From positions 186,001 through 250,000 of the forward strand of contig NZ_JACESE010000005.1 in the NCBI RefSeq assembly GCF_013911965.1: a stretch of DNA of 64,000 nt. The letters are read 5' to 3'. The notes under the pieces are model-generated. The model was given only the letters and a program-made list of their open reading frames with translations, was not told where the DNA came from and made no database searches. The translations under genes and the position numbers were made by a program. Of this stretch, positions 1 through 16,023 are shown piece after piece. Within the stretch, counting starts at the first letter, position 1. Every line of letters begins with the position of its first letter. The DNA comes from Phenylobacterium sp. (lineage in GTDB: Bacteria > Pseudomonadota > Alphaproteobacteria > Caulobacterales > Caulobacteraceae).

Positions 1-1781
1 TGCCAAGCGAGGAAGGCGACTTTCGACGGCCGCAGGCCGTAGCGGGTAATGTAGTAGAGGTTGAAGTCCTGCAGCTCGTAGGGCCCGACCTTGGCCTGGG
101 TGCTCTGGATCGCCCCCGAGGCGTCGGCCGGCACCAACTCCGGCGAGATCTCCGTGCTCAGCACCGAAAGCAGCGTCTGGGAGGCGTCGGCGTCGAACTG
201 GCCTGTGGTCGCGACCCAGCGGATCAGGTGCTGGATCAGCGTCTTCGCCACCGAGCCATTGACGTTGTAGTGGCTCATCTGGTCACCCACGCCGTAGGTG
301 CACCAGCCGAGCGCCAGCTCCGACAGGTCGCCCGTCCCGAGCACGAAGCCGCCGCGCTGGTTGGCGAGCCGGAACAGGTAATCCGTCCGCAGCCCAGCCT
401 GAACGTTTTCAAAGGTCACGTCGTACACCGGTTCACCCACGGCGAAGGGGTGACCGAGGTCGGTGAGAAGCTGGCGTGCGGCCGGCTTGATGTCGATCTC
501 TTCCCCGGTGACGCCGAGCGCCCGCATCAGTCGCCAAGCGTTCGACTTCGTGCCCTCGCTGGTTGCGAAGCCCGGCATGGTGAAGCCGAGGATGTCCGAG
601 CGGGGCTTGCCGAGCGCGTCGAAGGCCTTGGCCGCGACAATGAGAGCGTGGGTGGAGTCCAGGCCGCCGGACACGCCGACCACAATGTGCCTGGACTTGG
701 TGGCGTCGAGGCGTTTGGCGAGTCCCTGGACCTGGATGTTGAAGGCCTCGTAGCAATCCTTGTCGAGGCGCGCGAGGTCGTCCGGTACAAACGGGAACCG
801 GTCAATCGCGCGTAGCAGACCGACGTCCTGGAAACTAGGCTTGTGGTGGAATTCCACCCGGCGGAAGCAGGTCTCAGGACGCCCTGACGCCACGGCGGCG
901 TTGTTGAAGGTAGGTGTGCGCATGCGCTCAAGGCGCAGGCGTTCCACGTCGACGTCGGCCACGGCCATCTGCGCCTTGGCGGGGAAGCGATCCGTCTGGG
1001 CGAGCAGCACGCCAAGCTCGTGGATGGTCGCCTGACCGTCCCAGGCGAGGTCCGTTGTGCTCTCGCCCGGTCCGGCCGCCGAATAGAGATAGGCCGCCTG
1101 GCAGCGCAGCGACTGGGACGCACAAAGCAATGCTCGGTCGTCGGCTTTGCCGACCACGATGTTGGAGGCGGACAGATTGCAGAGGATCAGCGCGCCCGCG
1201 AGCGCGGCCTGGGTGGACGGCGGCGTCGCGGCCCAGAAGTCCTCACACATCTCCATGTGGAAGACGAAGTCCGGCAGATCGGCCGCCGTGAAGAGAAGGT
1301 CCGTCCCGAATGGAACGGATTGGCCGGCGATCTGCGTGTGCAGCCCGACAACGCCTGCGCCGGGAGCAAACCAACGGTTTTCGTAATACTCCCTATAGTT
1401 CGGCAGGAAGCTCTTCGGCACGACGCCCAAAATCCGCCCGCGAGAAATTGCGATCGCGCAGTTGTAGAGCCGGCCATTGTGGGCGACGGGGGCGCCGACG
1501 ATCAGCACCGGGGACAGCGCGGTGCTCGCCTCGACCAAACGTGCGAGCTCGAGCTCCACGCGGCGCACCAGGGTGTCCTGCAGCAACAGATCGTCGATGG
1601 CGTAGGCCGACAGTCCCAGCTCCGGGAAGAGCATGAGGTCGACGGCGCGGGCATGGCCATCTTTCGCAAGGGCTAAGGTTTCGTCGGCGTTGAAGCCGGG
1701 GTCGCCGACCGCTACGCGCGGCGTGCAGACGGCCACACGCACCAAGCCTTGCGTGTGAATGGCATAGAAGTTCGAGGTCAC
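1..1781 (-). CDS. nadE: Glutamine-dependent NAD+ synthetase (C-terminus beyond window edge)
   Basis: This enzyme makes NAD+ from deamido-NAD+ and ATP with glutamine as nitrogen donor. About 593 residues are visible; the family with an N-terminal glutaminase is about 680 aa, so the C-terminus lies left of base 1. The N-terminal nitrilase-like domain shows the Glu-Lys-Cys elements in [26 protein letters not shown] and MCEDFW. The C-terminal ATP-pyrophosphatase domain has the P-loop [10 protein letters not shown] near residue 370, and [16 protein letters not shown] and [14 protein letters not shown] are typical of NadE. The start is GTG at 1781, chosen because GGAGGTGA lies a few bases upstream and the nitrilase domain begins directly after it. 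The next gene diverges across a 198-bp spacer in which nothing else is seen. Whether it belongs to the island is unclear. Confidence 0.93.
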
Positions 1782-1979
1782 GGGTGCTCACCTCCGCTGT
1801 CACCCGGAGCAAAGCCGCGAGGGGCGGGAGCGGTTGCGGCGTGGGCTGCCCAGAGGGACGTCGCCTCAGATCCTTGGCTTGAACGGAGCGGCTGTTGGGA
1901 GGCCGGCTGGCGCAGCCGCCACGTTCAAGCCCGGGCTTGCAAGGTCGCCTAGCTTTCGCCCGCAAGCGAGGGAGCTTTC

Positions 1980-2825
1980 ATGCTTTGGGTTTTGAGGGTG
2001 GCCTATGCCCCGGGGTTCATGTTCGGGTTCATCGGCGCGGGGCTGGGGCTCGTCGCGAGCGGTCGGTCCTTGGCCTGGCTTGCTCCGCTGCTCGGCGCCG
2101 CTATCGCGGTTTCGTTCCTCGTGGAGCGGGTCATTCCCTACGAACCGATCTGGAACAGACCGCGCGGGGATAGCCGCCGCGATGTCCTGCACGCGCTGGT
2201 CAACGAAGCCAGCGTCTACGCCGGCGCAGCGCTGATCCCTGTGCTGACCCTGCTGTCGCCGGCCGCGGGCCTCTGGCCGGCCGCCTGGCCGATCTGGGCT
2301 CAGCTGGTGCTTGCGATCCTCGTGGCGGACCTCGGGATCACCCTTTGCCATTACTTCAGCCACAAGTTCCAATGGCTCTGGCGCTTCCACGCCGTCCATC
2401 ACTCAGTGAAGCGGATGTACGGCTTCAACGGCCTCATGAAGCATCCTGTGCACCAAGCCGTGGAGACGCTCGCCGGGACTGCGCCCCTGATCCTGATGGG
2501 CATGGCGCTCCAGATCGGCGTCCTTCTCGGTTTCGCGGTCGCGATCCAGCTCCTGCTGCAGCATGCCAATGTCGACATGCGGCTCGGACCGCTGCGCTAC
2601 GTGATGGCCTGGGCGCCCGTGCATCGCTTCCATCACCAGAAGTGGCCCGGCGTCGGCGACGTGAACTTTGGACTGTTCACCTGTCTCTGGGATTATCTTT
2701 TGCGCACGGCGTACTACGATCGCAGCAAGCGCCTCAGCTCCGACGACATCGGCATCGGCGATCAGCCGAACTATCCGACGGACTATGTCGCCCAGCTGGC
2801 GGCCCCGTTTCGGAAAATCAGCTGA
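1980..2825 (+). CDS. Fatty acid hydroxylase / sterol desaturase superfamily membrane protein
   Basis: An integral membrane di-iron oxygenase of the sterol desaturase/fatty acid hydroxylase superfamily, 281 aa. The three histidine clusters that bind the di-iron centre are visible: HYFSH near residue 124, HAVHH near 137 and HRFHH near 215. Several hydrophobic segments precede and separate them. The ATG is preceded by GAGGGAG at suitable spacing. The gene converges on an AraC regulator gene and lies close to a fatty-acid peroxygenase P450, so a role in hydroxylating a membrane lipid or carotenoid is plausible. The substrate cannot be read from the sequence; bacterial relatives act on fatty acids, sterol-like molecules and carotenoids. 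Confidence 0.85.
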   Translation: MLWVLRVAYAPGFMFGFIGAGLGLVASGRSLAWLAPLLGAAIAVSFLVERVIPYEPIWNRPRGDSRRDVLHALVNEASVYAGAALIPVLTLLSPAAGLWPAAWPIWAQLVLAILVADLGITLCHYFSHKFQWLWRFHAVHHSVKRMYGFNGLMKHPVHQAVETLAGTAPLILMGMALQIGVLLGFAVAIQLLLQHANVDMRLGPLRYVMAWAPVHRFHHQKWPGVGDVNFGLFTCLWDYLLRTAYYDRSKRLSSDDIGIGDQPNYPTDYVAQLAAPFRKIS

Positions 2826-2843
2826 GACCAGGCGCTCGCCGGC

Positions 2844-3596
2844 CTAGGCGCTGGGCGTCGCGAGGTGGAGTTGGCTGGCGGTCACCCCGAACGTGGCCTT
2901 GAGGGTGCGGGCGAGGTGCGCGGCGTCGGCGAAACCCGCAGCATGCGCGGCGACCGTGGCGTCACGGCCAGCCAGGAGATGCTCGGCGGCCAGGCGAAGC
3001 CGCCGCCAGAGCAGGAAGCGCCGATAGGGCAAACCGACCTCCTCTGCGAAGAGGTGGCGGAAGCGCTCAGGAGACAAGCCCGCGACGGCGGCCGCCCGCT
3101 TGAGGGGCGTAGGCCCCTCCGATAGATCCTCCTCGAGCACAAGCATCGCCGCCTGGAGGCGCGGATCCAGGGGCCGGGGCGCAGGCGTGGGCGACGACAG
3201 CCACCTCGCCCAAAACTCTTCCCCCGGCGCGCCCCTCAACACGGCAAGAGACCGCGTTTGCCGGATTTGCCGCAGCTTGGCTTCCAGCTCCGCCGCCGCG
3301 TAGCGCGAGGGCTCCAGGAAGATGAGCTCGGCCGAAGGCGACGCCACGAGGCGATGGGGCGCCAAGGGATCGATCAGGACGCAGTCAGCGGAGACGCTGC
3401 GTCCCTCGGCATCGTGGACCGTGAGCGGCTCGCCGCTCAGGACGGCCTGTGCGGCGAAATGACGGTGGGCGGCGGCGTCGCCCACCGCGCCGCGCCAGAC
3501 TGCCCATGTCGCCCCCAGCTCCAGTGCACCGGCCCAGCCCGGCTTATCCTTGCCCCCGGCAGGCCGACTCATAAGCGATTCCACAGTCCGATCCAT
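2844..3596 (-). CDS. AraC family transcriptional regulator
   Basis: A 250-aa regulator. The C-terminal 100 residues form the double helix-turn-helix DNA-binding domain of the AraC family, including SPERFRHLFAEEVGLPYRRF, FLLWRRLRLAAEHL and AGFADAAHLARTLKATFG. The N-terminal part is a divergent cupin-like sensing domain without recognisable ligand residues. It lies 28 bp downstream of the P450 gene on the same strand and could be read from the lspA-P450 promoter. No good ribosome binding site precedes ATG 3596; an internal ATG at 3572 (MSRPAGG) has a weak GGA upstream and is an alternative start. Its target is unknown; the P450 and the convergent hydroxylase gene are the obvious candidates. Confidence 0.85.
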   Translation of the reverse strand: MDRTVESLMSRPAGGKDKPGWAGALELGATWAVWRGAVGDAAAHRHFAAQAVLSGEPLTVHDAEGRSVSADCVLIDPLAPHRLVASPSAELIFLEPSRYAAAELEAKLRQIRQTRSLAVLRGAPGEEFWARWLSSPTPAPRPLDPRLQAAMLVLEEDLSEGPTPLKRAAAVAGLSPERFRHLFAEEVGLPYRRFLLWRRLRLAAEHLLAGRDATVAAHAAGFADAAHLARTLKATFGVTASQLHLATPSA

Positions 3597-3624
3597 GGAG
3601 CGGTCAGAGCGCCGTCGGGCGCCA

Positions 3625-4869
3625 TCAGTTCAGGCCAACGCCGCGCATGATGAAACGGCTGCGCGGCAAGGCCGGCAATCGCCCGAAGTCGAGCCCGAGG
3701 TCCTGCTGGGGGACCTCGTAGCGAATCCTTCGGGTCAGCACCTCGAAGGCGCGCTCCATGATCTCAACTACGATCCACTCGCCCGGGCAGCGGTGGCCGG
3801 CCAGATGGTCACCGCCTCCCTGCGGCACGAAATCGAACGGACCGGGCGGATGGGCGGCGAACCGTCCGGGTCGAAAGGCGTCCGGATCGGCCCAGGCGGA
3901 CGGATCGTGGTTGGTGCCGTACAGGTCCAGGATCACCTGCCGGTCCGCCGGGAAGCTGAGGCCGCGCCAGGTGAAGGGCTGCCGCACGCGCGCGATGAGC
4001 GACGGGAAGAACGGGTAGAAGCGGCGCACCTCCTGGATGAAGGCGTTGCGTTGCACCGGTCCCTCACGCGCTACCTGCGCCGCTTCCGGATGGGTGTGCA
4101 GGGCGTGGGCGAGCAAGACCACGTAGACAGCGGTCGCGACGGTGGGACGCAGCACGTTGGCGAGCTCGACGGCGGCGATGTTCGCCGCGAGCAGCTCGCC
4201 GTTGAGCTCCCGCGCATGCGCGATCCGGAAGGCGGCGGTGTCCTCATCCGGCGTCTGCCCGCCGTCCCGGATCGCCTCGACGACCCGCGAGAGCCAATGA
4301 TCGACCTTGCGGCGCGCGTAGCGGGACCAGAGGTGTCGAGGGCCGCGCGCGCCGGCCGCATCGAACAGGGCTCGGAGTTCTCGCGCGCGGCCCTGGACCT
4401 CGGCCGCTTCGATCGGCACGCCTGCCCACGCGCACACCGCACGCGTGAGCATCGGATGCAGTTCATCGTAGAAGGTGATCTCGCGGCCGTCCGAGGCCCA
4501 GCCCGCCGCGGCGCGCATTAGTTCGGCTTCGAAAAGCTCTCCAAGCACCCTGATGCGCTCAGGCGCCATCAGGTCCATGAACAGCTGCTTGCGGCGGCGA
4601 TGTGCGTCACCGTCGAGCCCCTGAACGCCCCCATCGCCGAGCAGGGTCTTGCGGATTGGCGAGGGCATGGCGCCTTCTCGCTTGAACCGGTCCACGTCGT
4701 AGAAGAGTGCCGCGGCTTCCGGTCCTTTCAGGCAGATCGTGTCCTTGAAGAGGACATGCGTTTCGAAGCCGTCTGCGCCGATCCGATCGCACTGTTTGGA
4801 GATGAAGCGATAGGGGTCAGTCACTAGGGCTAGAGTGGCGTCATGCGGCGGCTGGTGGCGGGCGGTCAT
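3625..4869 (-). CDS. CYP152-family cytochrome P450 (fatty acid peroxygenase)
   Basis: A 414-aa P450 of the CYP152 group, which uses hydrogen peroxide to hydroxylate fatty acids at the alpha or beta carbon, or in OleT decarboxylates them. The heme loop contains GGGDHLAGHRCPGEW with the axial cysteine at about residue 361. The usual acid-alcohol pair of the I helix is replaced by Arg241-Pro242 in NVLRPTVA, the family hallmark: the arginine binds the substrate carboxylate, which itself serves as the general acid. Length and residue spacing match Bacillus P450-BSbeta. The start is ATG 4869, which overlaps the lspA stop as ATGA, so the two genes are translationally coupled. Upstream in-frame codons are only an antisense-frame read of lspA. 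Alpha- versus beta-hydroxylation cannot be decided here. Confidence 0.93.
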   Translation of the reverse strand: MTARHQPPHDATLALVTDPYRFISKQCDRIGADGFETHVLFKDTICLKGPEAAALFYDVDRFKREGAMPSPIRKTLLGDGGVQGLDGDAHRRRKQLFMDLMAPERIRVLGELFEAELMRAAAGWASDGREITFYDELHPMLTRAVCAWAGVPIEAAEVQGRARELRALFDAAGARGPRHLWSRYARRKVDHWLSRVVEAIRDGGQTPDEDTAAFRIAHARELNGELLAANIAAVELANVLRPTVATAVYVVLLAHALHTHPEAAQVAREGPVQRNAFIQEVRRFYPFFPSLIARVRQPFTWRGLSFPADRQVILDLYGTNHDPSAWADPDAFRPGRFAAHPPGPFDFVPQGGGDHLAGHRCPGEWIVVEIMERAFEVLTRRIRYEVPQQDLGLDFGRLPALPRSRFIMRGVGLN

Positions 4870-5360
4870 GAATGCCCTTTCGCTGGCGGACTGGATGGGG
4901 CGGTGGCGGAGGCCTGCCGGCCAAGCGAGGTGAGCAGCAGCCATGCGACACCGACGGTGATCGCGGTGTCTGCGAGATTGAAGGTCGGCCAATGGAAATC
5001 GCCGATGTGGGCGTCGATGAAGTCGGTCACTGCGCCGAGGCGGACCCGGTCGACGATGTTCCCTAGGGCGCCACCGACAATCAGCGCGAGCGGCGCCGCC
5101 ACGGCGAGACGGCGCTCGCGCCACATCCATGCCATGAGCCACAGCGCGACTGCCGCCGTGCCGGCGACCAGCAGCCAGCGCCCAAGTTCGCCTGAGCCGG
5201 CGAAGAGTCCGAACGTGACGCCGGTATTGGACCCGAGCTGCAGGTTCAGAGACGGCCCCAGGGTCGCGGGCTCCGTGAGGTGGGCGCGCGCTATGAGCTT
5301 GGTGGCCTGATCGGCCGCGAGCACGCCGAGGCTAAGGGTGAGTCCAAGCGTCCTGTGCAT
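4866..5360 (-). CDS. lspA: Signal peptidase II (metal-island copy)
   Basis: Lipoprotein signal peptidase, an inner-membrane aspartic protease that cleaves diacylated prolipoproteins before the lipobox cysteine. It is 164 aa, the usual length, with four hydrophobic segments. The catalytic aspartates are visible as Asp104 in NIVDR and Asp131 in FNLAD, and the conserved NTGVTFGLF loop is present. Core copies usually sit by ileS; this one sits behind a MerR-type operator next to a czc operon. This resembles lspA genes in cadmium/lead resistance loci such as pbrBC, so it is probably an accessory, metal-induced copy. AAAAGGAG precedes the ATG. It shares an ATGA overlap with the following P450 gene. 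Confidence 0.95.
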   Translation of the reverse strand: MHRTLGLTLSLGVLAADQATKLIARAHLTEPATLGPSLNLQLGSNTGVTFGLFAGSGELGRWLLVAGTAAVALWLMAWMWRERRLAVAAPLALIVGGALGNIVDRVRLGAVTDFIDAHIGDFHWPTFNLADTAITVGVAWLLLTSLGRQASATAPSSPPAKGHS

Positions 5361-5380
5361 CGAGGCTCCTTTTGCTGCTC

Positions 5381-5411
5381 AGCCTTCCACCTCTAGCTGC
5401 TAGAGGATCAA
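5381..5411 (-). promoter_or_regulatory. MerR/CadR-type promoter-operator of lspA-CYP152
   Basis: A perfect dyad CCTCTAG-CTG-CTAGAGG (5390-5406) sits in a 19-nt spacer between TTGATC (minus strand, 5411-5406) and AAGGCT (5386-5381). An over-long spacer with a central dyad is the signature of MerR-family activated promoters. The arrangement and sequence match the site at 15993-16023. A predicted start near 5374 would give a short leader with AAAAGGAG before lspA. Confidence 0.75.
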
Positions 5412-5597
5412 GCCCGATCTGGCGCCGCTCGAGCGCGCGAGCGGATCGGCCTGCGCCGGCGGCCCGCTGACAGAGCTTCAGGGAAGCGCGCTCGGTCCAG
5501 CGCCGCCGCAAAGGGACTGCGCAGCCCAACGTCGCGACGTGCGAGCCACTGCAATCGCTGGCAGGACTGTAGCAGTGCTTGCTGAAGCACAGCAATT

Positions 5598-8054
5598 TCA
5601 GGGCTTGTCCCGATGGCCCAGCAGGCGCAGGGCGTTGAACACTACGAGGAGCGTCGACCCTTCGTGGAAAACAACGGCGGCGCCGATCTTTAGGCCGAAA
5701 ATGGTGGCCGGGATCAGGAAGGCGACCATCCCAAGGCTCACGAGCAGGTTCTGCTTGATGATGGCGCTGGTCTGACGGCTTAGGCTGACCGCGAAGGGCA
5801 GTCGCCGCAGGTCGTCCGCCATTAGGGCGACGTCTGCGGTCTCGAGCGCCACGTCGGATCCGGCTGCGCCCATCGCGATCCCCACGGTCGCGTTCGCCAT
5901 GGCCGGCGCATCGTTGACGCCGTCCCCGACCATCGCGACGCCGCCTGCTTGCTCGCGAAGGGCCTTGATGAAGGCGACCTTGTCCTCCGGCATCAGTCCG
6001 CCGCGGGCGTCGGTCAGACCGAGCTTGGCGGCGATGGCGTCAGCAACGCCCTGATTGTCGCCCGACAGCATGATCATGCGCTTGACGCCCAGCCGGCGGA
6101 GGGCGGCGATGACCTCTGCGGCGCCCTCGCGCGGCGTGTCCTGTAGGCCGATCACGCCGAGGTAGGTCTCGCCGCTCCGAACTACCATGACGGTCCGCCC
6201 TGAGCTGGAGAGCCGCTCGACTTCACTGCGCACCTGCTCGGGCACGGGCGCCCCCGGAACGGTCTCGAAGAGCTTGAGCTTCCCGATGAAGACGTCTTCA
6301 CCGCCAAAGCGCCCGCGGACACCTTGTCCGGTGATGCTCTCCACCGCTTCGGCGCGTCCGGGCGGGCCAGGCAGCCTTTCAGTGGCCGCCGTGACCACCG
6401 CTGCCGCAAGCGGATGGTCGCTCAGCCCCTCGACCGCCGCCGCCGTCTCAAGGAGCCGCGCTTCGTCGCCCCCCACGGCAGGCACGACGTCGGTGACGCG
6501 GGGGCGTCCCTCCGTCAGGGTGCCGGTCTTGTCGAACGCCAGAGCCTGCAGCCTCCCAAGGTTCTCCAGCGGCCCGCCCCCCTTCACGAGGACGCCGCCG
6601 CGTCCTGCGCGAGCCACGCCGCTGAGGACGGCGCTCGGGACGGAGATCGCCAAGGCACAGGGGCTGGCGGCGACCAGGACCGCCATCGCCCGGTAGAAGC
6701 TCACGCTGAACGGCTCATCGACCACGACCCAGGCGAACATCAGGGCGAAGACACCCAGGAGGACGGCCGGGACAAAGATCCGTTCGAACTTGTCGGTGAA
6801 GCGCTGCGTGGGCGAGCGCTGCGCCTCGGCCTCGGCGACCATGGTGACCACGCGAGCTAGGGTCGACTCACCGGAGAGGCGCGCCACGCGCACCTCCAGG
6901 GCTCCAGCCCCATTGATGGTGCCCGCGAACACCTTTTGCGCGGCATCGGCCGTTTCGAATGCGATGTCGTGGCCCGCCGCGCGCTTGTCGACCGGCATGC
7001 TCTCGCCGGTGACGGGGGCCTGATTGACCGAACTCTCGCCTACGACGACGACCCCGTCGGCCGGCAGCCGTTCGTTGGGCCGAACCATGACGATGTCGCC
7101 GATCTCAAGCGCCTCGACGGGGACATCTTCGAAGGTGTCGCCACGCTTGCGGCTTGCGCGCTCCGGCGCCAGTTCGGCCAGCGCCTCGATGGCCCTGCGA
7201 GCCCGCCCCATCGCGTAGTGTTCCAGTGCATGGCCTAGGCTGAAGAGCACGAGCAGCAGGGCGCCTTCGGCCCACTCGCCCAACGCCGCCGCACCCGCCG
7301 CGGCGACCAGCATCAGCGTGTCGATCTCGAAGCGGCGCTTACGGAGATTTTCGAGCGCTTCGCGCAGCGTGAAGTAGCCGCCGAACCCGTACGCCAGGAG
7401 ATAGAAGGCCAGCGGGATGGCGCCCTCAAGGCGGAAGGACGCAAGCCAGCCGATCAGCAACACCACGGCGGACAGCCCGGCGAAGACCAGTTCCGTCCGC
7501 TCGCCGAACGGGCCACCGTGCTTGTGCTCGTGTCCCTCTCCCGGCTTGTGCTCGTGGCCCCCGTGCTCGCCCTCCTTCGCGGAGGACTTGCGTCGTGCGG
7601 CTTCCGCGTTTGACTGCCCAAGGGCGGCCGCGCGCTCCAGCAGGTAGGCCTCCAGGGCGACGGGCTCGACCTTCGCGGGGTCGAACTCGACCAGGACCGC
7701 GCCGGTCACGCCCACATCGGCGTGGAGCACCCCCGGACGGCCTCGGAGGTCGTCCGCCAGGGTCCGGGCGGCGCGGGCATGCAGCGGCTGGCTCAGGCGA
7801 AAGTTGGCGTGGCCGGAGGCGCTTGCGAGGCGGGCGCCCTGCTGCACGGCCAGGGCGCGAACCTGGGACGCAGAGATTCGGGCTGGATCGAAGTGCACGC
7901 AGAGCACCGCGTCCTCGCGGCCCTGCACATGCGCTTCGGCGACCCCGGGCCGTGAGGCAAGGACCTCCGCGAGTTGCTGCACACAGCGCTCGCAAGCCTC
8001 CGCGGCGGCCGGCAGCAGGACCGGGATCTCGAGACGAAGCTTGTCTTCAGCCAC
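5598..8054 (-). CDS. P1B-4-type heavy metal translocating ATPase (CzcP/CoaT-like)
   Basis: An 818-aa inner-membrane P-type ATPase exporting divalent metal ions. Visible elements are an N-terminal ferredoxin-like metal-binding domain with EACERC, a second degenerate copy, a His-rich linker with several HEH/GGH repeats, TGES in the actuator loop, the phosphorylated Asp508 in DKTGTLTEG, and GDGVNDAPA. The transmembrane metal motif is SPC (Cys466), not CPC, and the last helix has HEGST (His797). Both mark subgroup P1B-4 (Co/Zn/Cd/Fe, for example CzcP) rather than ZntA. The start is GTG 8054 with AAAGGA upstream, 11 bp after the CDF gene; a longer frame to 8192 overlaps that gene. It is the last gene of the czc operon. 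Confidence 0.92.
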   Translation of the reverse strand: MAEDKLRLEIPVLLPAAAEACERCVQQLAEVLASRPGVAEAHVQGREDAVLCVHFDPARISASQVRALAVQQGARLASASGHANFRLSQPLHARAARTLADDLRGRPGVLHADVGVTGAVLVEFDPAKVEPVALEAYLLERAAALGQSNAEAARRKSSAKEGEHGGHEHKPGEGHEHKHGGPFGERTELVFAGLSAVVLLIGWLASFRLEGAIPLAFYLLAYGFGGYFTLREALENLRKRRFEIDTLMLVAAAGAAALGEWAEGALLLVLFSLGHALEHYAMGRARRAIEALAELAPERASRKRGDTFEDVPVEALEIGDIVMVRPNERLPADGVVVVGESSVNQAPVTGESMPVDKRAAGHDIAFETADAAQKVFAGTINGAGALEVRVARLSGESTLARVVTMVAEAEAQRSPTQRFTDKFERIFVPAVLLGVFALMFAWVVVDEPFSVSFYRAMAVLVAASPCALAISVPSAVLSGVARAGRGGVLVKGGGPLENLGRLQALAFDKTGTLTEGRPRVTDVVPAVGGDEARLLETAAAVEGLSDHPLAAAVVTAATERLPGPPGRAEAVESITGQGVRGRFGGEDVFIGKLKLFETVPGAPVPEQVRSEVERLSSSGRTVMVVRSGETYLGVIGLQDTPREGAAEVIAALRRLGVKRMIMLSGDNQGVADAIAAKLGLTDARGGLMPEDKVAFIKALREQAGGVAMVGDGVNDAPAMANATVGIAMGAAGSDVALETADVALMADDLRRLPFAVSLSRQTSAIIKQNLLVSLGMVAFLIPATIFGLKIGAAVVFHEGSTLLVVFNALRLLGHRDKP

Positions 8055-8065
8055 AGCGCGTCCTT

Positions 8066-8704
8066 TCAACTTTCCGTCGCGGGCTCTGCGCGGCTCTCGG
8101 CCGCGTCCCGTAGAATTTCCAGCCCGCCCTTCGCCGCGATCAGGGCCACCAGCACGCCCACGACCAAGTCCGGCCAGGCCTGGTTCAGCCACATGATCAA
8201 GGCCCCGGCGACGAGGATGCCGCCGTTGGACGCGAAGTCATTGAGGCTGAAGGTCTCTGCCGCGCGCATGTTCACGTCGTCGCTTTGCGCACGGCGCAGG
8301 AGGAATAAGCAAACGAGGTTCACGCCCGCAGCGACGAGCGCCAGGGCCATCATGGTCCAACCGACGGGCTCGGTTCCGAGCCACCAGCGGCGGATCACGT
8401 CCAGAAGCACGCCGCCCGCGAAGATCAGCAGCATGATACCGGAGACCCCCGCCGCTCGGCGTTTCCAGACGGCGGCGCGGCCGACGGCCAAGAAGCTGAT
8501 CGCGTAGACGGCGGCGTCTGATGCGTTGTCAACGGCGTTGGCGATCAGCGCGCTCGAGTCGGCGAGCAGACCGGCTAGGCCAAGGCTGACGAACAGCGCT
8601 GCGTTGAGCACGAACACCCAAAGCAAGGTCCGCCGTTGCGCACGGTCGACGTCGCTCAATGCGGCCATGTCTCCTTGGCAGTTGACTTCGGAGACCTCCC
8701 TCAT
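8066..8704 (-). CDS. Cation diffusion facilitator family transporter (first copy)
   Basis: A 212-aa membrane protein with six hydrophobic segments and no C-terminal cytoplasmic domain, a short CDF (cation efflux) form. The metal-site region of helix 2 reads ADSSALIANAVDNASDA and helix 5 reads FSLNDFASNGG, which fit the Asp/Asn/His positions of the family. It would export Zn2+, Cd2+ or Co2+ from cytoplasm to periplasm by proton exchange. ATG 8704 forms an ATGA overlap with the preceding gene, which favours this start over an internal ATG at 8668 whose AGGAG is too close. It is a distant paralogue of the CDF gene at the promoter end of the same operon. Confidence 0.85.
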   Translation of the reverse strand: MREVSEVNCQGDMAALSDVDRAQRRTLLWVFVLNAALFVSLGLAGLLADSSALIANAVDNASDAAVYAISFLAVGRAAVWKRRAAGVSGIMLLIFAGGVLLDVIRRWWLGTEPVGWTMMALALVAAGVNLVCLFLLRRAQSDDVNMRAAETFSLNDFASNGGILVAGALIMWLNQAWPDLVVGVLVALIAAKGGLEILRDAAESRAEPATES

Positions 8705-9186
8705 TGCTCGGGGCCGATGGGGTGCGCGCCCGCGGGTGCGTAGTTGACCCGGATGCGACCGATGAGGTCCGCGGGCACTCCGAGGCGAGCGGTATAGGCC
8801 GCTGCTGCCGGATGCCGGCCCACGAGGGAGCCGCGCCATCGGACGTGCTTCAACGCCAGCAGGCCGCCCTGCCGGTCGAAGGCGGCGACATCCAGGTGGC
8901 CCCCAGTGGGGAGCCTGGACGTTGGGCGGCGGCGCACCAAGCCGCGGACCACGGCCGGATGTTCGCCGACCCGCAGATAGCCGGTGAGGATCTTTAGCGG
9001 GCCTCCTTCGACGAGCTCGACGGCTGGGGTCGGCTCGGCCAAGGCCGCGCCGGACGCCGCAGCGATCAAGCCCGTGGCGAGAGTCGCTACACGGCAGAAC
9101 CGCTGGGCAGCCCGGGGGCCCGGCCGTGGCGCGCCTCGCACCCGGCCGCTCCGGACCTTCAACGGGCCTCGTTCCATTCCGCTCAT
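8701..9186 (-). CDS. Unrecognised exported protein in czc operon
   Basis: A 161-aa protein that I do not recognise. After a basic N-terminus it has a hydrophobic stretch (VATLATGLIAAASGAALAEP) with a likely signal peptidase I site AxA, so it is probably periplasmic. The mature part has no Cys or His cluster but contains KILTGYLRVGEHPAVVRGLV and an Arg-rich middle. It begins 4 nt after the czcA stop and overlaps the next CDF gene by ATGA, so it is co-translated with the efflux system. A periplasmic accessory or metal-sensing role is possible but nothing in the sequence proves it. An upstream in-frame start at 9240 would overlap czcA and is less likely. Confidence 0.6.
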   Translation of the reverse strand: MSGMERGPLKVRSGRVRGAPRPGPRAAQRFCRVATLATGLIAAASGAALAEPTPAVELVEGGPLKILTGYLRVGEHPAVVRGLVRRRPTSRLPTGGHLDVAAFDRQGGLLALKHVRWRGSLVGRHPAAAAYTARLGVPADLIGRIRVNYAPAGAHPIGPEQ

Positions 9187-9190
9187 GGTG

Positions 9191-12100
9191 TCAGTCCTCA
9201 ATCCCTTCGGCGCTCCGATGTCGGACCGCCTGGGCGGCAAACGTCGGCAACACCAACAGGGTCAGAGCGGTTGCTGTGAGCAGACCTCCGATGACGACTG
9301 TGGCGAGAGGCTTTTGCACCTCAGCGCCTGCGCCGTGTGCGATGGCCATGGGGATGAAGCCGACAATGGCGACAAGAGCGGTCGTCAGGACAGCGCGTAG
9401 CCGGCTAGACGCACCTTCGATGGCTGCATCCTTCGGGAGCAGCCCTGCTGTCAGGCGCTCGCGGATCGCCTGCATCAGGACGAGCCCGTTCAGTGTCGCC
9501 ACGCCCGACACCGCGATGAACCCCACAGCCGCGGAGACGGAGAAGGGCATGCCCCGCAGGAGCAAGGCGACGGCGCCGCCGACGAGGGCGAGGGGAACGC
9601 AGGCGAAGACGAGGGCCGCCTCCGCAAACGAGCCAAGCGCCATGAAGAGCAGAATGCCGATGAGCACGAAGACCACCGGGATCACCAGTCCTAGCCGTTG
9701 TTCGGCACGCTGCAGGTTCTCGAACTGACCGCCCCAGTCGAGGTAGACCCCGGTGGGCAGGGCGACTTTCGCGACGCGCTGCTGGGCGTCGCTCACAAAT
9801 CCGCCGAGGTCGCGGCCTCGAACGTTGGCCTGCACCACCATCCGCCGGCTCCCGTTCTGCCGGCTGATCTGGTTGGGGCCTTCTGCTGTGTCGATGCGAG
9901 CCACGGACGCCAGAGGCACCACGGCGCCGGAGGTCGACACGACTGGCAGAGCTGCAAGGGCGGCGGGATCGTTGCGCGCCGCTTCCGGCAAGCGCACGAC
10001 GACATCGAAACGGCGGTCGCCCTCGAAGATCTGACCCGCCTCAGCGCCCCCAATGCCCGCCGAGACGGCCTCACTCACGTCCGCCGCCGAAAGGCCGTAA
10101 CTGGCCGCAGCGAACCGATCGACTTTGATGGTCAGGGTGGGCAGGCCGGAGGCCTGCTCGACCCGCACGTCCGCCGCGCCGGGGGTCTGCCGCAGGGCGG
10201 CGGCGACCTGATCGGCTGTTCGCTGCAACGTTCCGAAGTCGTCCCCATAGACCATCACAGCCAGGTCCGTGCGGACACCCGAGATCAATTCGTTGAAGCG
10301 AAGTTCGATCGGCTGGCTGAACTCGAAATTATTGCCGATCTGTTGGCCCGCCGCCTTCTCGATTCGTTCGATCAGTTCCTCTTTCTGAAGTCTCGGGTCC
10401 GGCCAGGCCTTGCGATCCTTCAGTACGATGACGCTGTCGGAGATGTTGGGCGGCATGGGATCCACCGCCGCTTCTGCGGTGCCTGTGCGGGAGAACATGG
10501 TCTCCACTTCCGGCTGAGCCTTGATGGCGCGCTCAAGCGCCATCTGCATGGCGATGGATTGCTCCAGAGAGGCCGACGGCACACGCAGGGCCTGCATCGC
10601 GATATCGCCTTCGTCCAGGGTCGGGATGAATTCGCGGCCGAGTGTGAAGAACGAGATCACGCCAACGAGCAGCGCCATGCCCGCCGCCATGAGCACCATC
10701 CTTGGTCGCGACACCGCCGCTCCGATCGCCGGCTGGATGCGCTGGCGCGCCCAGCGAAGGATGCGAGTCTCGTGCTCCTCCACCCTTCCGTCTGGGCCCG
10801 AGTGCACCGACTTAGGATCCCGCACGAGCAAGGCGGCCATGGCAGGCACGAAGGTGAAGGACAGGATGAACGCGCCGACCAGGGCAAGCATGACCGTCGC
10901 GCCCATGGGCTGGAAGGTCTTGCCTTCGACGCCTTCGAGGGTGAGCAACGGGGCGAACACGAGCAGGATGATGAGCTGACCAAAGGCGGCGGGCTTGACC
11001 ATCTGCCGGGCGGCCTCAACCGCCGCGCCGAGACGTTCGTGTCGGGTCAGCACCCGACCCAACGCGGCACGGCGCTGGCTGAGCAGTAGCAGCGTATTCT
11101 CGATCACGACGACGCCGCCATCGACCATCAATCCGAAGTCGAGGGCACCGAGGCTCATCAGGTTTCCGCTGATCCCGAACCGGTTCATCCCGATCACCGC
11201 GAACAGGAAGGAGAGCGGGATCATCAGCGCCGTGATTGTCGCCGCGCGAATGTTGCCGAGCAGCAGGAAGAGGATGACGATGACGAGAAGCGCGCCTTCG
11301 GTCAGGTTGCGCGCAACGGTCTTGATGGTCGAGTTGACCAGCTCGCTTCGGTTGAGCACCGGAATCGCGACCACGTCGGGCGGAAGTGAATCATCCACTT
11401 CTGCCAGCCGTTCCGCCGCGGCTTGAGCGACGGTGCGACTGTTGCCCCCGGCGATCATCAGCGCGGTGCCGAGAACGGCCTCGTGGCCGTCGCGACTGGC
11501 GGCGCCGAGCCGCAGGCCCTGTCCGATCTCCACGGTCGCGACGTCTGCGACCCTCACGACCAGACCATCCCGGTTCACCACCGGAGCCTGCGCCAGGTCC
11601 TGAATGGACCCGGCGAGGGCGTCGCTTCGCACGACCAGGGCCTCGCCCGCCCGCTGAACGAAGCCTGCGCCAGCCTGGGTGTTTGCGCGCTCGAGCGCCT
11701 GCACAAGATCGCCCAGACTGAGCTTGTAAGCTGACAATCGGGCGGGGTCCGGGCGGACTGCGTACTCCTTCACATAACCCCCGACGGTATCCACGCCTGC
11801 CAGCCCCCGGGTGGAGCGCATCTGCGGCGCGATGATCCAGTCCTGCACCGTGCGCAGGTAGGTCGCCCTCTGCTGCGGAGTCGCCAGCCGCTCTCCCTCG
11901 GGCGTGAGGTAGACGCCATCCGGCTGCCAACCCGGCCGCCCAGCCCGCGCCTTCGCCTGGTCGAAGGCCGCGTAGTCGACAGTCCACATCAGGACTTCGC
12001 CGAGCCCGGTGGTCACGGGGGACAGCGCCGGCTCGACACCCTCGGGCAGGTTCTCCTGTGCTTCTCTCATCCGCTCGGCGACCTGCTGGCGAGCGAAATA

Positions 12101-12409
12101 GATATCAGTCTGGTCGGTGAAGACGGCTGTGATCTGGCTGAAGCCGTTGCGCGAGAGTGAGCGGGTACTCGTCAACCCAGGGATCCCCGCGAGGGCGGTC
12201 TCCAGCGGATAGGTGACCTGCCGTTCGATCTGCTCGGGGGCGAGCGAAGGCGCGACGGTCGTGATCTGGACCTGACGGTTGGTGATGTCCGGGACTGCAT
12301 CGATCGGCAGCCGGGTGAGTTCGAAGAGCCCGAGGGCAGCCACAGCGGCGACAGCAAGGATCACGAACCAGCGGAAGCGTACGGACGCTTCGATCAAGGC
12401 TTTGAACAT
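9191..12409 (-). CDS. czcA: Heavy-metal RND efflux pump, inner membrane subunit CzcA
   Basis: A 1072-aa proton-driven RND pump of the heavy-metal efflux group, which moves Co2+/Zn2+/Cd2+ from the periplasm or inner membrane to the outer membrane channel. Two RND halves are visible: an N-terminal helix (FRWFVILAVAAVAALGLFEL), the first large periplasmic domain, then the proton-relay helix 4 with ALDFGLMVDGGVVVIEN, and a repeat of the pattern in the C-terminal half. VPDITNRQVQITT and GFSQITAVF are typical of CzcA/CusA proteins. It follows czcB by 8 bp in the same operon. Zn/Co/Cd rather than Cu/Ag fits the CadR-like regulator and CDF neighbours, but the metal is inferred. Confidence 0.95.
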   Translation of the reverse strand: MFKALIEASVRFRWFVILAVAAVAALGLFELTRLPIDAVPDITNRQVQITTVAPSLAPEQIERQVTYPLETALAGIPGLTSTRSLSRNGFSQITAVFTDQTDIYFARQQVAERMREAQENLPEGVEPALSPVTTGLGEVLMWTVDYAAFDQAKARAGRPGWQPDGVYLTPEGERLATPQQRATYLRTVQDWIIAPQMRSTRGLAGVDTVGGYVKEYAVRPDPARLSAYKLSLGDLVQALERANTQAGAGFVQRAGEALVVRSDALAGSIQDLAQAPVVNRDGLVVRVADVATVEIGQGLRLGAASRDGHEAVLGTALMIAGGNSRTVAQAAAERLAEVDDSLPPDVVAIPVLNRSELVNSTIKTVARNLTEGALLVIVILFLLLGNIRAATITALMIPLSFLFAVIGMNRFGISGNLMSLGALDFGLMVDGGVVVIENTLLLLSQRRAALGRVLTRHERLGAAVEAARQMVKPAAFGQLIILLVFAPLLTLEGVEGKTFQPMGATVMLALVGAFILSFTFVPAMAALLVRDPKSVHSGPDGRVEEHETRILRWARQRIQPAIGAAVSRPRMVLMAAGMALLVGVISFFTLGREFIPTLDEGDIAMQALRVPSASLEQSIAMQMALERAIKAQPEVETMFSRTGTAEAAVDPMPPNISDSVIVLKDRKAWPDPRLQKEELIERIEKAAGQQIGNNFEFSQPIELRFNELISGVRTDLAVMVYGDDFGTLQRTADQVAAALRQTPGAADVRVEQASGLPTLTIKVDRFAAASYGLSAADVSEAVSAGIGGAEAGQIFEGDRRFDVVVRLPEAARNDPAALAALPVVSTSGAVVPLASVARIDTAEGPNQISRQNGSRRMVVQANVRGRDLGGFVSDAQQRVAKVALPTGVYLDWGGQFENLQRAEQRLGLVIPVVFVLIGILLFMALGSFAEAALVFACVPLALVGGAVALLLRGMPFSVSAAVGFIAVSGVATLNGLVLMQAIRERLTAGLLPKDAAIEGASSRLRAVLTTALVAIVGFIPMAIAHGAGAEVQKPLATVVIGGLLTATALTLLVLPTFAAQAVRHRSAEGIED

Positions 12410-12417
12410 GGGATGTC

Positions 12418-13614
12418 CTAGTGTCCGTGCTCGGCTTCGCCCTTGGCGAGTTCGGCTTTCAGGAGGAAGGCGTTGGCCGCGGCGACCCGCTCCTCGCCGC
12501 CCAGCCCGCGGAGGATCTCGGTGCGGCCGCCGGCTTGGCGCCCAACCAGCACCGGTGTGGCACGGAAGCCGCCGTTCACCGCCACGAACACGACGCTCGA
12601 GCCCTCGATGCTCTGAACGGCATCGCTTGGCACTGTCAGCCCGCCTGCCTCAGCGCCGGTGATGACCGCGCCCGTCACCGCCGAGCCTGCCGGGGGGAGC
12701 ACGCCTCCAGCCGCGCGTGCGCGGATGACCGTCGCACCCGTCTGCTCGCCGGCAGCCGTCGCAACTCCGACGATCACGGCGTCAAATTCGCCCGTGGGCC
12801 CTTGGACCCGAATCCGGGATCCTGCGCGAACGCCGGTGGCGACACTCGGCGGTGCATTGAAGACCAGTTCGACCCGGTCGGGGTCGATCACGTCGGCGAC
12901 GACGCCGCCCTGCGTGACGAAGCCGCCAGGCCCGATCGCGACAGAGGTGACGACGCCGGAAATCGGGCTGATGACGGTCAACCGGCCCGCAGCGTTGGGC
13001 CTACCCGACGCCGAGGCCCGCGCCCGGGCCGCGCGCGCCGCCGCTTCGGCGCTGAGCGCTTGAGCTCGCGACGTCTCGACCTCTTGCCGCGCAACGATCC
13101 CCTGGGAGCCAAGGCTCTGGTCACGCTGATAGGCGCGTCGCGCGGCGTCGGCCGCTGCGGCTGCAGCGTCGGCGTCGGCTCGGAAGGTTGCGGCTTCGCC
13201 GCTCACCAAGACCGCAAGGCCTTGGCCGGCGCGGACCGATTGCCCGGCGGCTACGAGAACCCGTTCCACGCGGCCGGCCACAGCCGCTCCAACGCTGGCC
13301 CGGGCATCAATCATCGGCTCGACACGCCCGGAAAGCCGGACTTCGCCGCCGCCGCCACGCGTGACCGCGACCAGCTGAATTCCGGAAGCGCGGATCTGCG
13401 TCGGCGTGAGCGCAACGACTCCTTCGGGCGCTGCGGCGCCCTCTTCGCTGTGGCCTTCTTCCTCCGCGCCTTCTTCCGCGTGCTCCTCGCCAGCGGCGGG
13501 AGCCGCGGGCTTGCTCATCATGTTCGACAGGACGAACCCGCCCCCGCCGGCCAGCATCACTGCGGCCGCGACCGCGCCATATAGGCGCGCATTGTCCCTC
13601 TTCATTGTCATCAT
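12418..13614 (-). CDS. czcB: RND efflux periplasmic adaptor CzcB
   Basis: A 398-aa membrane fusion (HlyD/MFP) protein linking CzcA to CzcC. It has a single N-terminal transmembrane anchor (LYGAVAAAVMLAGGGGFVLS), then an acidic, His-containing low-complexity stretch (EEHAEEGAEEEGHSEEG) likely to bind metal, an alanine-rich coiled-coil hairpin, and beta-barrel domains with VISPISGVVTSVAIGPGGFV. The C-terminus ends in a short EHGH tail, also possibly metal-binding. ATG 13614 overlaps the czcC stop by ATGA; two further ATG codons follow within the first four codons. Confidence 0.93.
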   Translation of the reverse strand: MMTMKRDNARLYGAVAAAVMLAGGGGFVLSNMMSKPAAPAAGEEHAEEGAEEEGHSEEGAAAPEGVVALTPTQIRASGIQLVAVTRGGGGEVRLSGRVEPMIDARASVGAAVAGRVERVLVAAGQSVRAGQGLAVLVSGEAATFRADADAAAAAADAARRAYQRDQSLGSQGIVARQEVETSRAQALSAEAAARAARARASASGRPNAAGRLTVISPISGVVTSVAIGPGGFVTQGGVVADVIDPDRVELVFNAPPSVATGVRAGSRIRVQGPTGEFDAVIVGVATAAGEQTGATVIRARAAGGVLPPAGSAVTGAVITGAEAGGLTVPSDAVQSIEGSSVVFVAVNGGFRATPVLVGRQAGGRTEILRGLGGEERVAAANAFLLKAELAKGEAEHGH

Positions 13615-14864
13615 TGTACTCCGGGGGTGGCGTCGCCGCTGAGCCGAGCTTGCGCGGCCTGGGCGCTGATCCGCTCGACGGCGGCTGCAATGGTTTGGGC
13701 GCGCGCTTCAGTCAGGGCGCGGCGGGCGGCGACCAGTTCGGCGAGCGGGAGTTTGCCGGCCTCGTACCCGATGCGGGCGAGACGATAGGCTTCTTCGGCG
13801 GTGCTCTCGCCCTCGCGGGCTGCCGCGAGCCGGGTTTCGGCCGCTGAGATGCGCGCCGTGCTGGTGCGGACGGCGGCTTCGGCGTCGAGCCTGGCCGCGT
13901 TCAGCCGGGCCTCGGCGGCTGTCTGTTCAGCCCGAGCGGCGGCGATATTGCCGCGGTTCTGATCGAACAGCGGCAGGGGCACAGAGACGCCCGCGACGAG
14001 CGCGGTGGCGTCGTCCTCTTGGAAACGGCGCAGGCCGACGGAGAGGGTCACATCCGGAATGGCTCGACGTCGTTCAACGCTAAGGCGTCGCGCCGCCGCT
14101 TCTCGCTCAGCCTGTGCAGCGAGGAAGGCCGTCGTCGCGTTCGCTGCGGGATTGGCTCCGGAGAAGAGTGGAGCTTTCGCCTCGAGTAGGCTGACCGGGA
14201 TCGAGGTGATTGGCGCCGACGCCCCGGCGAGGGCTGTCAGATTGCCGAAGGCAGTCGCACGCGCAGCCTGGGCTTCGTCCACCGCCGCACGGGCGGCTTG
14301 CACCGCCGCCTGAGCCTGGAGACGCCGCAGGTCGGCCTCCCGTCCCGCCGCGACCAGGGCTGTGGCGATGCGCGCATCCTCTTCCGCGAGGCTTCGCGAG
14401 TCATGGGCGAGTTTCAGTCTCCGTTCGGCCGCCTCGGCATCAGCATAGGCGGCCGCCAAATCGAAGGCGTATTCCGCTTCGATCCGGCGGGCCTGGGCGC
14501 GAGCCGCCTCGACTTCCGCACGCCCAGCCGCGACCCGCGCCGAGCGCTTGCCGCCAAGCTCGACAGTCTGACCGATCGTCGCGGTGGTCTCCGACAGGCT
14601 CGTCCCGCGGAAGGGACCGGAACCGGAGAAGTTTTCGATCTCGAGTCCCACGCTCGGGTTGGGGATCGCGCCTGCCTGCCTTGCGAGCCCTTCGGCCCGA
14701 GCGATGTTGGCGCGCGCCTCGGCGAGACGGGGGGCGGTGGCCTGCGCCTGGGCCAGCAGTGCGGCGAAGGGCGGCGCAGGTTCGGCCATAGCGGCGCCGG
14801 CTGCGCCGAGGCTGACCAGCAAGAGCAGTCCCGCCAAAGGCGAGCTGCGGAAGTCGGGTTTCAT
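13611..14864 (-). CDS. czcC: Outer membrane efflux channel CzcC (TolC family)
   Basis: A 417-aa outer membrane factor. A cleavable signal peptide (LAGLLLLVSLGAAGAAMAEP) is followed by two Ala/Glu/Arg-rich long-helix repeats typical of TolC-like channels, with SVGLEIENFSG in the first and LSVGLRRFQEDD in the second half marking the two beta-hairpin regions. It delivers metal ions exported by CzcAB to the outside. It begins 48 bp after the CzcI-like gene and ends in an ATGA overlap with czcB, in the standard czcCBA order. Confidence 0.92.
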   Translation of the reverse strand: MKPDFRSSPLAGLLLLVSLGAAGAAMAEPAPPFAALLAQAQATAPRLAEARANIARAEGLARQAGAIPNPSVGLEIENFSGSGPFRGTSLSETTATIGQTVELGGKRSARVAAGRAEVEAARAQARRIEAEYAFDLAAAYADAEAAERRLKLAHDSRSLAEEDARIATALVAAGREADLRRLQAQAAVQAARAAVDEAQAARATAFGNLTALAGASAPITSIPVSLLEAKAPLFSGANPAANATTAFLAAQAEREAAARRLSVERRRAIPDVTLSVGLRRFQEDDATALVAGVSVPLPLFDQNRGNIAAARAEQTAAEARLNAARLDAEAAVRTSTARISAAETRLAAAREGESTAEEAYRLARIGYEAGKLPLAELVAARRALTEARAQTIAAAVERISAQAAQARLSGDATPGVQ

Positions 14865-15287: not shown

Positions 15288-15986
15288 CTATATCGAGGCT
15301 GACGAGCGCTGGGAATGCGTTACAAAATCACGTTCGGCTTTCGCCGCGCGACGCTCTTCACGGGCCTGAGCGGTGATCTGCCAAGCGGAGCGGAAAAAGA
15401 CCGCTGCCAGCAGCACGCCCACGATCACGTCCGGCCAGCGCGACCCTGCCACAGTGACAGCCACGCCGGTGGCTGCCACGGCAAGGCATTGGATGAGGTC
15501 ATTGCGCGTGCAGAGCCAGACGGACCGGACGTTGGCGTCGCCCTCGCGGAAGCGCACCAGTAACAGGGCCGCCAGGAGGTTGGCGGCTGCGCCGAACAGG
15601 CCCAGGCCGGAGATGGCGCCGCCTTCCGGCGAGGCCCCGGTGAGCGCGCGCCAGATGGCCAGGCAGAGAATGCCGGTCGCCATGATCGCCAGACTCGCAC
15701 TCTTGATGAAAGCAGCGCCGGAGCGGACCTGGACGCTCTTGCCAATCACCCACAGGCTCAAGGCGTAGGTGGCCGCATCGGCTGCGAAGTCGAGCGTGTT
15801 GGCCGCCAGCGCAGCCGAGTCGGCGAGCCAGCTGCCGATGGCTACGACGACAAAGCCTACGACATTGATGGCGATCACGGCGGTGAGGGCCCGCTTGTAG
15901 GCCGGAGACGCGCCATCGAACGCAACAGCGGTTCCGCAACCACAGCTCGCGGCAGTCGGCTCTTCGGAGGTCGAACAACTGGACAT
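15288..15986 (-). CDS. Cation transporter, CDF family (second copy), Cys-rich N-terminus
   Basis: A 232-aa inner-membrane cation efflux protein, the first gene of the czc operon. It has six hydrophobic segments; helix 2 shows ADSAALAANTLDFAADAATY and helix 5 TRNDLIQCLAV, both CDF-like, and there is no long C-terminal domain. The N-terminus carries Cys residues (SSCSTSEEP, ASCGCG) suitable for metal capture before the first helix. An in-frame ATG at 16001 would lie inside the MerR operator, so ATG 15986 is preferred. The predicted transcription start lies at or within a few bases of this ATG, so the mRNA may be leaderless. Confidence 0.85.
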   Translation of the reverse strand: MSSCSTSEEPTAASCGCGTAVAFDGASPAYKRALTAVIAINVVGFVVVAIGSWLADSAALAANTLDFAADAATYALSLWVIGKSVQVRSGAAFIKSASLAIMATGILCLAIWRALTGASPEGGAISGLGLFGAAANLLAALLLVRFREGDANVRSVWLCTRNDLIQCLAVAATGVAVTVAGSRWPDVIVGVLLAAVFFRSAWQITAQAREERRAAKAERDFVTHSQRSSASI

Positions 15987-15992
15987 GCCGCC

Positions 15993-16023
15993 ACCCTGCA
16001 TCCTCTAGTGGCTGGAGGATCAA
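15993..16023 (-). promoter_or_regulatory. MerR/CadR-type promoter-operator of the czc operon
   Basis: The dyad CCTCTAG-TGG-CTGGAGG (16002-16018, one mismatch) lies in a 19-nt spacer between TTGATC (16023-16018, minus strand) and CAGGGT (15998-15993). It sits between the divergent efflux operon and merR, the usual place for a CadR/PbrR/ZntR operator. It shares TTGATC, the dyad arms and the spacing with the lspA site at 5381-5411. Confidence 0.8.

Follow-up and report, generated by a model that had tools for sequence, protein, structure and literature searches.

The window, a stretch of 64,000 nucleotides of Phenylobacterium sp. DNA, contains an lspA gene and a CYP152-type P450 gene which form one unit. 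The region at 3.6-16.5 kb, in which this unit lies, is probably a divalent-metal (Zn/Cd/Pb-type) efflux island. Its genes and promoters, with the two genes beyond the P450, are listed in Table 1.

Table 1. Genes and promoters of the lspA-CYP152 unit and the adjoining metal-efflux genes in the window
Feature	Position	Strand	Remarks
FA_hydroxylase (sterol desaturase/OlsE-like) gene	1980-2825	+	convergent; 169 bits against OlsE model, below cut-off of 475
AraC-type regulator	2844-3596	-	28 nt 3' of P450 gene, same strand
CYP152 P450 (fatty-acid peroxygenase)	3625-4869	-	about 60% identity to P450SPalpha (CYP152B1)
lspA	4866-5360	-	TIGR00077 and Pfam Peptidase_A8 matches
MerR-type promoter/operator of lspA-CYP152	5381-5411	-	-35 TTGATC 5411-5406, 19-nt spacer, -10 AAGGCT 5386-5381
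P1B-type metal ATPase	5598-8192	-	TIGR01525 and TIGR01512 above cut-off; His-rich stretch in N-terminal part
CDF-family cation transporter	8066-8839	-	start uncertain
CzcA/CusA-type RND pump	9191-12409	-	
RND periplasmic adaptor, CzcB position	12418-13614	-	TIGR01730 above cut-off; CzcB model TIGR00999 below
Outer membrane efflux protein, CzcC position	13611-14864	-	
CDF-like transporter	15288-15986	-	start 15986 by our reading
Second MerR-type promoter/operator	15993-16023	-	TTGATC-19 nt-CAGGGT, dyad CCTCCAGCCACTAGAGG
MerR-family regulator, CadR/PbrR/ZntR-like	16056-16499	+	Cys 80, 116, 123, 135; divergent from CDF gene

The start of the CDF-like transporter gene is probably as given in Table 1, because the listed start, 16001, falls within the promoter. 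The P1B-type ATPase has an SPC and not a CPC membrane motif, which we take to suggest a P1B-4 or CzcP-like metal range. The AraC-type gene is probably the third gene of the lspA-CYP152 unit, and together with CYP152 and the OlsE-like hydroxylase gene it may form a lipid-hydroxylation module.

The best NCBIfam model for the divergently transcribed regulator was CadR-PbrR (TIGR02047), with 114.8 bits against a cut-off of 151.45. Since the protein reaches the cut-off of none of the NCBIfam models listed for it, its metal is not fixed by these scores, and it is filed here only as a MerR-family, CadR-like regulator. Residues Cys14, Cys79 and Cys134 are essential in PbrR (PMC3431237), whereas the regulator has Asp at position 14 and its cysteines at the four positions given in Table 1. 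A CadR or PbrR label was rejected on account of the missed TIGR02047 cut-off and of this Asp.

LspA and the CYP152 P450

The island LspA reached 92.0 bits with TIGR00077, above the cut-off of 73.95, and is thus classed as signal peptidase II. It could be aligned to the solved structure 9emz through the GNIVDR and FNLAD segments, which presumably make up the catalytic region. Two signal peptidase II matches were found in the genome, the island lspA and one on another contig (C28), 47% identical. The lspA start is preceded by AGGAG, and the lspA stop and the P450 start share the bases ATGA at 4866-4869, a four-base overlap by which the frames are coupled.

When all solved chains were compared with the P450, the nearest were structures of P450SPalpha/CYP152B1 (3awm, E 5e-163, residues 5-412). 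CypC/P450BSbeta (CYP152A1, E 6e-108) and OleT (CYP152L1, E 3e-77) are alike in belonging to the CYP152 family and having its peroxygenase motif, but are farther from the window P450 than SPalpha is. Its kinship to characterised CYP152 enzymes extends over the full length, and in the alignment to SPalpha the Arg-Pro (instead of an acid-alcohol pair), the Gln84 equivalent and the heme Cys were all matched. With the CypC equivalog model NF053744 it scored 493.2 bits, below the curated cut-off of 600. The island P450 is a predicted H2O2-driven fatty-acid hydroxylase of the CYP152 family.

Operators of the island

A perfect 8-1-8 dyad, CCTCTAGCAGCTAGAGG, which reads CCTCTAGC-A-GCTAGAGG, is located before lspA at 5390-5406 on the minus strand. 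The earlier note, made from the letters of this DNA, had described both the ATGA overlap and a perfect dyad before lspA, and both were confirmed. Metal promoters of the MerR family have a strong palindrome inside a spacer of 19-20 nt (PMC1526738, PMC3431237), and the same geometry was found in TTGATC-19-AAGGCT; the -10 hexamer AAGGCT is weak, which counts against this reading. The second operator is in the stretch that separates the MerR and CDF genes; its dyad is of the same type and departs from the pattern by one mismatch.

With at most one mismatch, CTCTAGNNNCTAGAG occurs at two sites in the window (0.03 expected), and the 17-base dyad pattern occurs at two places in the whole 3.86-Mb genome, both in this island; the pattern read backwards, used as control, gave seven matches per strand in the genome. 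Because both genome places of the dyad fall in the island, the lspA-CYP152 unit is very probably a member of the MerR regulon of the island. Its placement in a metal regulon, proposed in the earlier note, is therefore well supported, as judged from an operator common to two promoters of one island and from the recurrence of the lspA-CYP152 neighbourhood described below. The stretch is almost identical in two close Phenylobacterium relatives, and its conservation there is hence little informative.

When 2700-5700 was scanned, neither a sigma-70-like promoter with 16-18 nt spacing (0.1 expected by chance) nor a terminator (1.3 expected by chance) was found. This says little on a separate P450 promoter, because the chance expectation is low and the signals used in a GC-rich host may differ.

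Distribution and phylogeny of CYP152

CYP152 is rare: among 385, 398 and 199 genomes searched from the class, the phylum and the family, it was found at E 1e-60 in 6, 7 and 6, respectively, the window's own genome counted each time. Searching genome contigs for related loci returned only the two close Phenylobacterium relatives, and family searches were therefore used. In total, 72 P450 sequences were collected, from 47 survey places, 8 and 16 further loci and the window. The tree holds 70 of them, as the fragmentary P450s of L104 and L117 were dropped; L166-L170 came later and are not included. It was built by a quick method in which SH-aLRT was the sole measure of support, and long branches occur in three rows.

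Thirty-two rows, among them the window, fall on one branch (SH-aLRT 97), referred to below as the clade. In 21 of these rows lspA is upstream on the same strand, a label used loosely since the lspA end may be up to 1.2 kb upstream with intervening genes; eight have other metal genes within 5 kb and three have neither, so that 29 of 32 have lspA or metal genes. Among the three, L098 is cut off by the end of its contig about 120 bases upstream, L112 has genes for a multicopper oxidase, a 'metal transporter' and MntR that the labelling rule did not count, and in L119 a copper-type gene is located at a distance of about 6 kb.

When only survey rows were considered, which had not been chosen by context, lspA or metal genes were near in 11/12 clade rows versus 4/34 outside (Fisher p 1.1e-6), and lspA was upstream in 10/12 versus 0/34 (p 1.6e-8), p values that overstate independence because the rows are related. 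The idea that CYP152 in general is a metal-island gene was rejected, as neither lspA nor metal genes lie within 5 kb in 30 of the 34 outside survey rows; CYP152 beyond the clade is only weakly linked to metals.

For neighbour counts, 25 of the 32 clade rows were kept and seven near-identical ones dropped. LspA was present within 6 kb at 18/25 clade loci, 3/38 other CYP152 loci and 1/39 random stretches, and CDF at 12/25, 0/38 and 0/39, respectively. CzcA was not enriched (1/25 versus 3/38, and 2/39 at random), which counts against the function proposed below. CcdA was found near 6/25 clade loci. The queries were taken from these very loci, those for LspA, CDF and MerR from the window and the first six regions, so that results for small families (MAPEG, peroxiredoxin, methyltransferase) are suggestive only.

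MerR-type operators were also found at other loci of the clade. In the window's own family, a like operator stands 5' of lspA-MAPEG-MerR-CYP152 in L063, L064 and L066 and 5' of methyltransferase-lspA-CYP152 in L065; P450 identity of these four to the window is 61-66% and LspA identity 55%. In L095, which is from a different family, the like operator stands 5' of the P1B ATPase gene in a row P1B-...-lspA-CYP152. By our reading, the promoters of L063-L066 and L095 have a 19-nt spacer, and the second and sixth bases of their -10 hexamer are A and T. When one mismatch was allowed, TTGATCCTCTAGNNNCTAGAGG was found at 5/25 non-redundant clade loci, 0/38 other CYP152 loci and 0/39 random stretches; allowing up to four mismatches, the counts were 11/25, 1/38 and 2/39, several of the clade matches preceding other metal genes. 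Only eight of the 32 clade rows (window, L002, L003, L063-L066 and L095) have a recognisable MerR-type operator ahead of the CYP152 unit.

Genes 3' of CYP152 were noted at several loci. An AraC-type gene follows 3' of CYP152 also in L002, L003, L098-L100 and L169. The OlsE-like fatty-acid hydroxylase gene comes next after it in the window, L002, L003 and L098-L100, not in L169; it is convergent in the window, L002 and L003, and on the same strand in L098-L100. An NAD(+) synthase gene is no more than about 5 kb from CYP152 in the window (3-1787, minus strand), L002 (13085-15133), L003 and Microvirga L108 (12980-15034). The CYP152 frame changes in L095 (8989-10372), before the heme-Cys segment, and in L003 (9539-11243), where several adjoining genes also change frame, suggesting an assembly error.

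Gene arrangements on plasmids

Twenty-seven of 115 matching plasmid records were inspected, mostly one per genus and chosen non-randomly among the matches listed. In these regions lspA is directly upstream of CYP152 in eight, separated from it by a peroxiredoxin gene in two and elsewhere in the region in three; eight have metal genes without lspA, and six little or no metal context. Plasmid gene tables are incomplete (the P1B ATPase frame of L122 is absent from its table). Ten annotated plasmid loci have a same-strand lspA upstream, and in six of them the gap is 30 nt or less.

Several arrangements were seen. The order ArsR-CDF-lspA-CYP152 was found in Sulfitobacter, NT-25 and Paracoccus; ArsR-CDF-exchanger-CcdA-lspA-CYP152 in Rhizobium Q54, Pelagibacterium and Jiella; and ArsR-CDF-CcdA-lspA-CYP152, with no exchanger, in Ancylobacter, the regulators of NT-25 and Q54 being annotated only as transcriptional regulator. 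Agrobacterium has CYP152-MAPEG-P1B-lspA-CcdA-uppP, and a planctomycete plasmid cadA-trxA-czcD-cypC. ArsR-P1B-lspA-CYP152 of Paenibacillus and CYP152-ArsR-ATPase-lspA-CcdA-cadmium transporter of Arthrobacter FB24 are outside the 32-row clade. In two Erythrobacteraceae plasmids, L118 (5537-8254) and L169 (4528-7242), lspA, peroxiredoxin and CYP152 genes stand in a row, preceded by genes annotated as acetolactate synthase and aldehyde dehydrogenase; in L118 a dyad with 7-base arms precedes the peroxiredoxin gene.

The lspA-CYP152 neighbourhood is thus kept across genera and, in some arrangements, phyla; a survey of this adjacency was what the earlier note had set beforehand as able to overturn its proposal. 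As to MerR operators beside the pair, which the earlier note had proposed to look for, a like operator heads three other lspA...CYP152 arrangements, while ArsR and CDF genes head the unit elsewhere.

The prototype enzyme and the type of reaction

The P450 encoded on the Sphingomonas paucimobilis plasmid NZ_CP065669 (L005, 7986-9233) is identical over 415 residues to PDB 3awm, that is P450SPalpha, and the window P450 is 60% identical to it. Upstream of this gene are copD, a P-type ATPase gene and cueR, and downstream a helix-turn-helix gene and a MerT-family gene; no lspA was found in the 17 kb read of this island. The identity to 3awm and these neighbours place the textbook alpha-hydroxylase in the same clade and in the same kind of island, there among plasmid copper and mercury resistance genes. 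In the available text of PMC5818669, P450SPalpha is treated for its enzymology.

Arg241-Pro242 of SPalpha are named in PMC5818669, where OleT is given a His at the Gln84 position. By loose patterns, Arg-Pro was found in 32/32 clade rows and CxG in 31/32. Gln at the Gln84 position was found in 30/32 by a pattern that failed in the other two, and that failed in 34 of 38 outside rows and so says nothing about those. The clade fits the hydroxylases rather than OleT because of this Gln, and looks alpha-hydroxylase-like rather than decarboxylase-like.

Comparison with known metal resistance systems

The pbr operon of Cupriavidus metallidurans (PbrR, PbrA, PbrB, PbrC) is alike in having a MerR-family regulator, a dyad promoter with 19-nt spacing, a P-type ATPase and, with PbrC, a predicted signal peptidase gene (PMC3431237, PMC1526738). 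It differs in that the lspA unit of the window has its own operator and in the residue corresponding to PbrR Cys14, which is Asp in the window regulator. For PbrB, which we take to be a UppP-type partner of LspA, the window frames gave no match to one UppP query (that of L007, E 1e-5). The term P450 occurs zero times in the main text of PMC1526738 on pbr. The cadR-cadA and czc islands share with the window a divergent MerR gene with a transporter gene and czcCBA, CDF and P1B ATPase genes; the window adds an lspA-CYP152-araC unit under the same operator type. None of the open-literature matches listed, as covered by titles and abstract starts, described CYP152, or a P450 beside lspA, in a metal operon.

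Proposed function and alternative explanations

We consider it fairly probable that lspA-CYP152 is a metal-induced part of a MerR-regulated Zn/Cd/Pb-type island and that the lipid hydroxylation is protective. The MerR-family regulator would control both the promoter of the CDF-czcCBA-CDF-P1B ATPase genes and that of lspA-CYP152(-araC). When Zn/Cd/Pb-like ions are bound by the regulator, the promoter with the 19-nt spacing would be realigned, and lspA and CYP152 would be induced together. Extra LspA would support lipoprotein maturation under metal stress. Thiophilic metals would raise H2O2, which CYP152 would spend on hydroxylation of the fatty-acid alpha-carbon, so that peroxide is consumed and 2-hydroxy-acyl chains are supplied for a less permeable, metal-tolerant envelope. 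The adjoining AraC/OlsE-like hydroxylase pair may point to the same lipid role. Like the earlier note, we infer a remodelling of the envelope in which peroxide raised by metal is met by joint lipoprotein processing and lipid hydroxylation. More speculatively, and rather doubtful to us, the whole clade including P450SPalpha would be dedicated to metal stress and controlled by MerR or ArsR, with LspA as a frequent operon partner, and 2-hydroxy fatty acids would bind or exclude Zn, Cd, Pb or Hg at the membrane through alpha-hydroxy-carboxylate or hydrogen-bonding groups. On that reading the enzyme family would have a natural role, and metal resistance would have a lipid arm.

The main rival explanation is that CYP152 serves stress or lipid functions and is carried along by plasmids and genomic islands in which metal genes happen to be present, with no role in metal tolerance. 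Plasmid carriage does confound part of the CYP152-metal association: 17 of the 32 clade rows came from plasmid records, four of the 12 clade survey rows (L067, L069, L097, L098) are on contigs equal in size to listed plasmids, and the six plasmid regions with little or no metal context agree with such carriage. A same-contig paired control covered 39 of the 47 survey loci, the other eight being on contigs under 58 kb, too short for it. Within 2.5 kb, LspA was found at 8/39 loci versus 0/39 random stretches, and any metal gene or lspA at 10/39 versus 3/39; within 5 kb the figures were 8/39 versus 1/39 and 13/39 versus 4/39, the metal genes in the random stretches being a point for mere carriage. 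Against it stand the tight coupling to lspA (gaps of -8 to 30 nt), the varied arrangements with two kinds of metalloregulator (MerR and ArsR), the operator kept before the unit despite proteins at 55-66% identity, and the restriction of upstream lspA to the clade among survey rows. We regard a role as passenger as unlikely.

A second possibility is that the P450 serves mainly as a sink for H2O2 or lipid damage under metal-caused oxidative stress, the hydroxy fatty acid being incidental. The gene order of the two Erythrobacteraceae plasmids is in keeping with this, as are peroxiredoxin genes within 6 kb of 4/25 clade loci and MAPEG genes at 5/25, versus 0/77 other loci each, counts biased by queries from these loci. 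However, the commonest partner is LspA (18/25), and P450 peroxygenases are slow peroxide sinks compared with catalase and peroxiredoxin; defence against peroxide as the main function seems improbable to us.

A third possibility is that transcription of the unit comes by read-through out of the P1B ATPase gene upstream, so that the unit is co-induced without a promoter of its own even though the dyad is bound. The same strand, the 237-nt gap and the lack of a terminator-like site in 2700-5700 would allow this, but it is very unlikely given the unit's own dyad with MerR-promoter geometry, the AGGAG before lspA and, in L063-L066, a like operator directly before the unit with no P1B ATPase match within 9 kb upstream.

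Accounts of metal resistance deal mostly with sensing, efflux and sequestration. The recurrence of CYP152 in metal islands suggests an unrecognised lipid step in metal resistance. If the metal-induced, protective role favoured here is true, a recurrent, metalloregulated, peroxide-driven lipid hydroxylase would add membrane chemistry to metal resistance, and a group of enzymes much studied as biocatalysts would gain a natural role.
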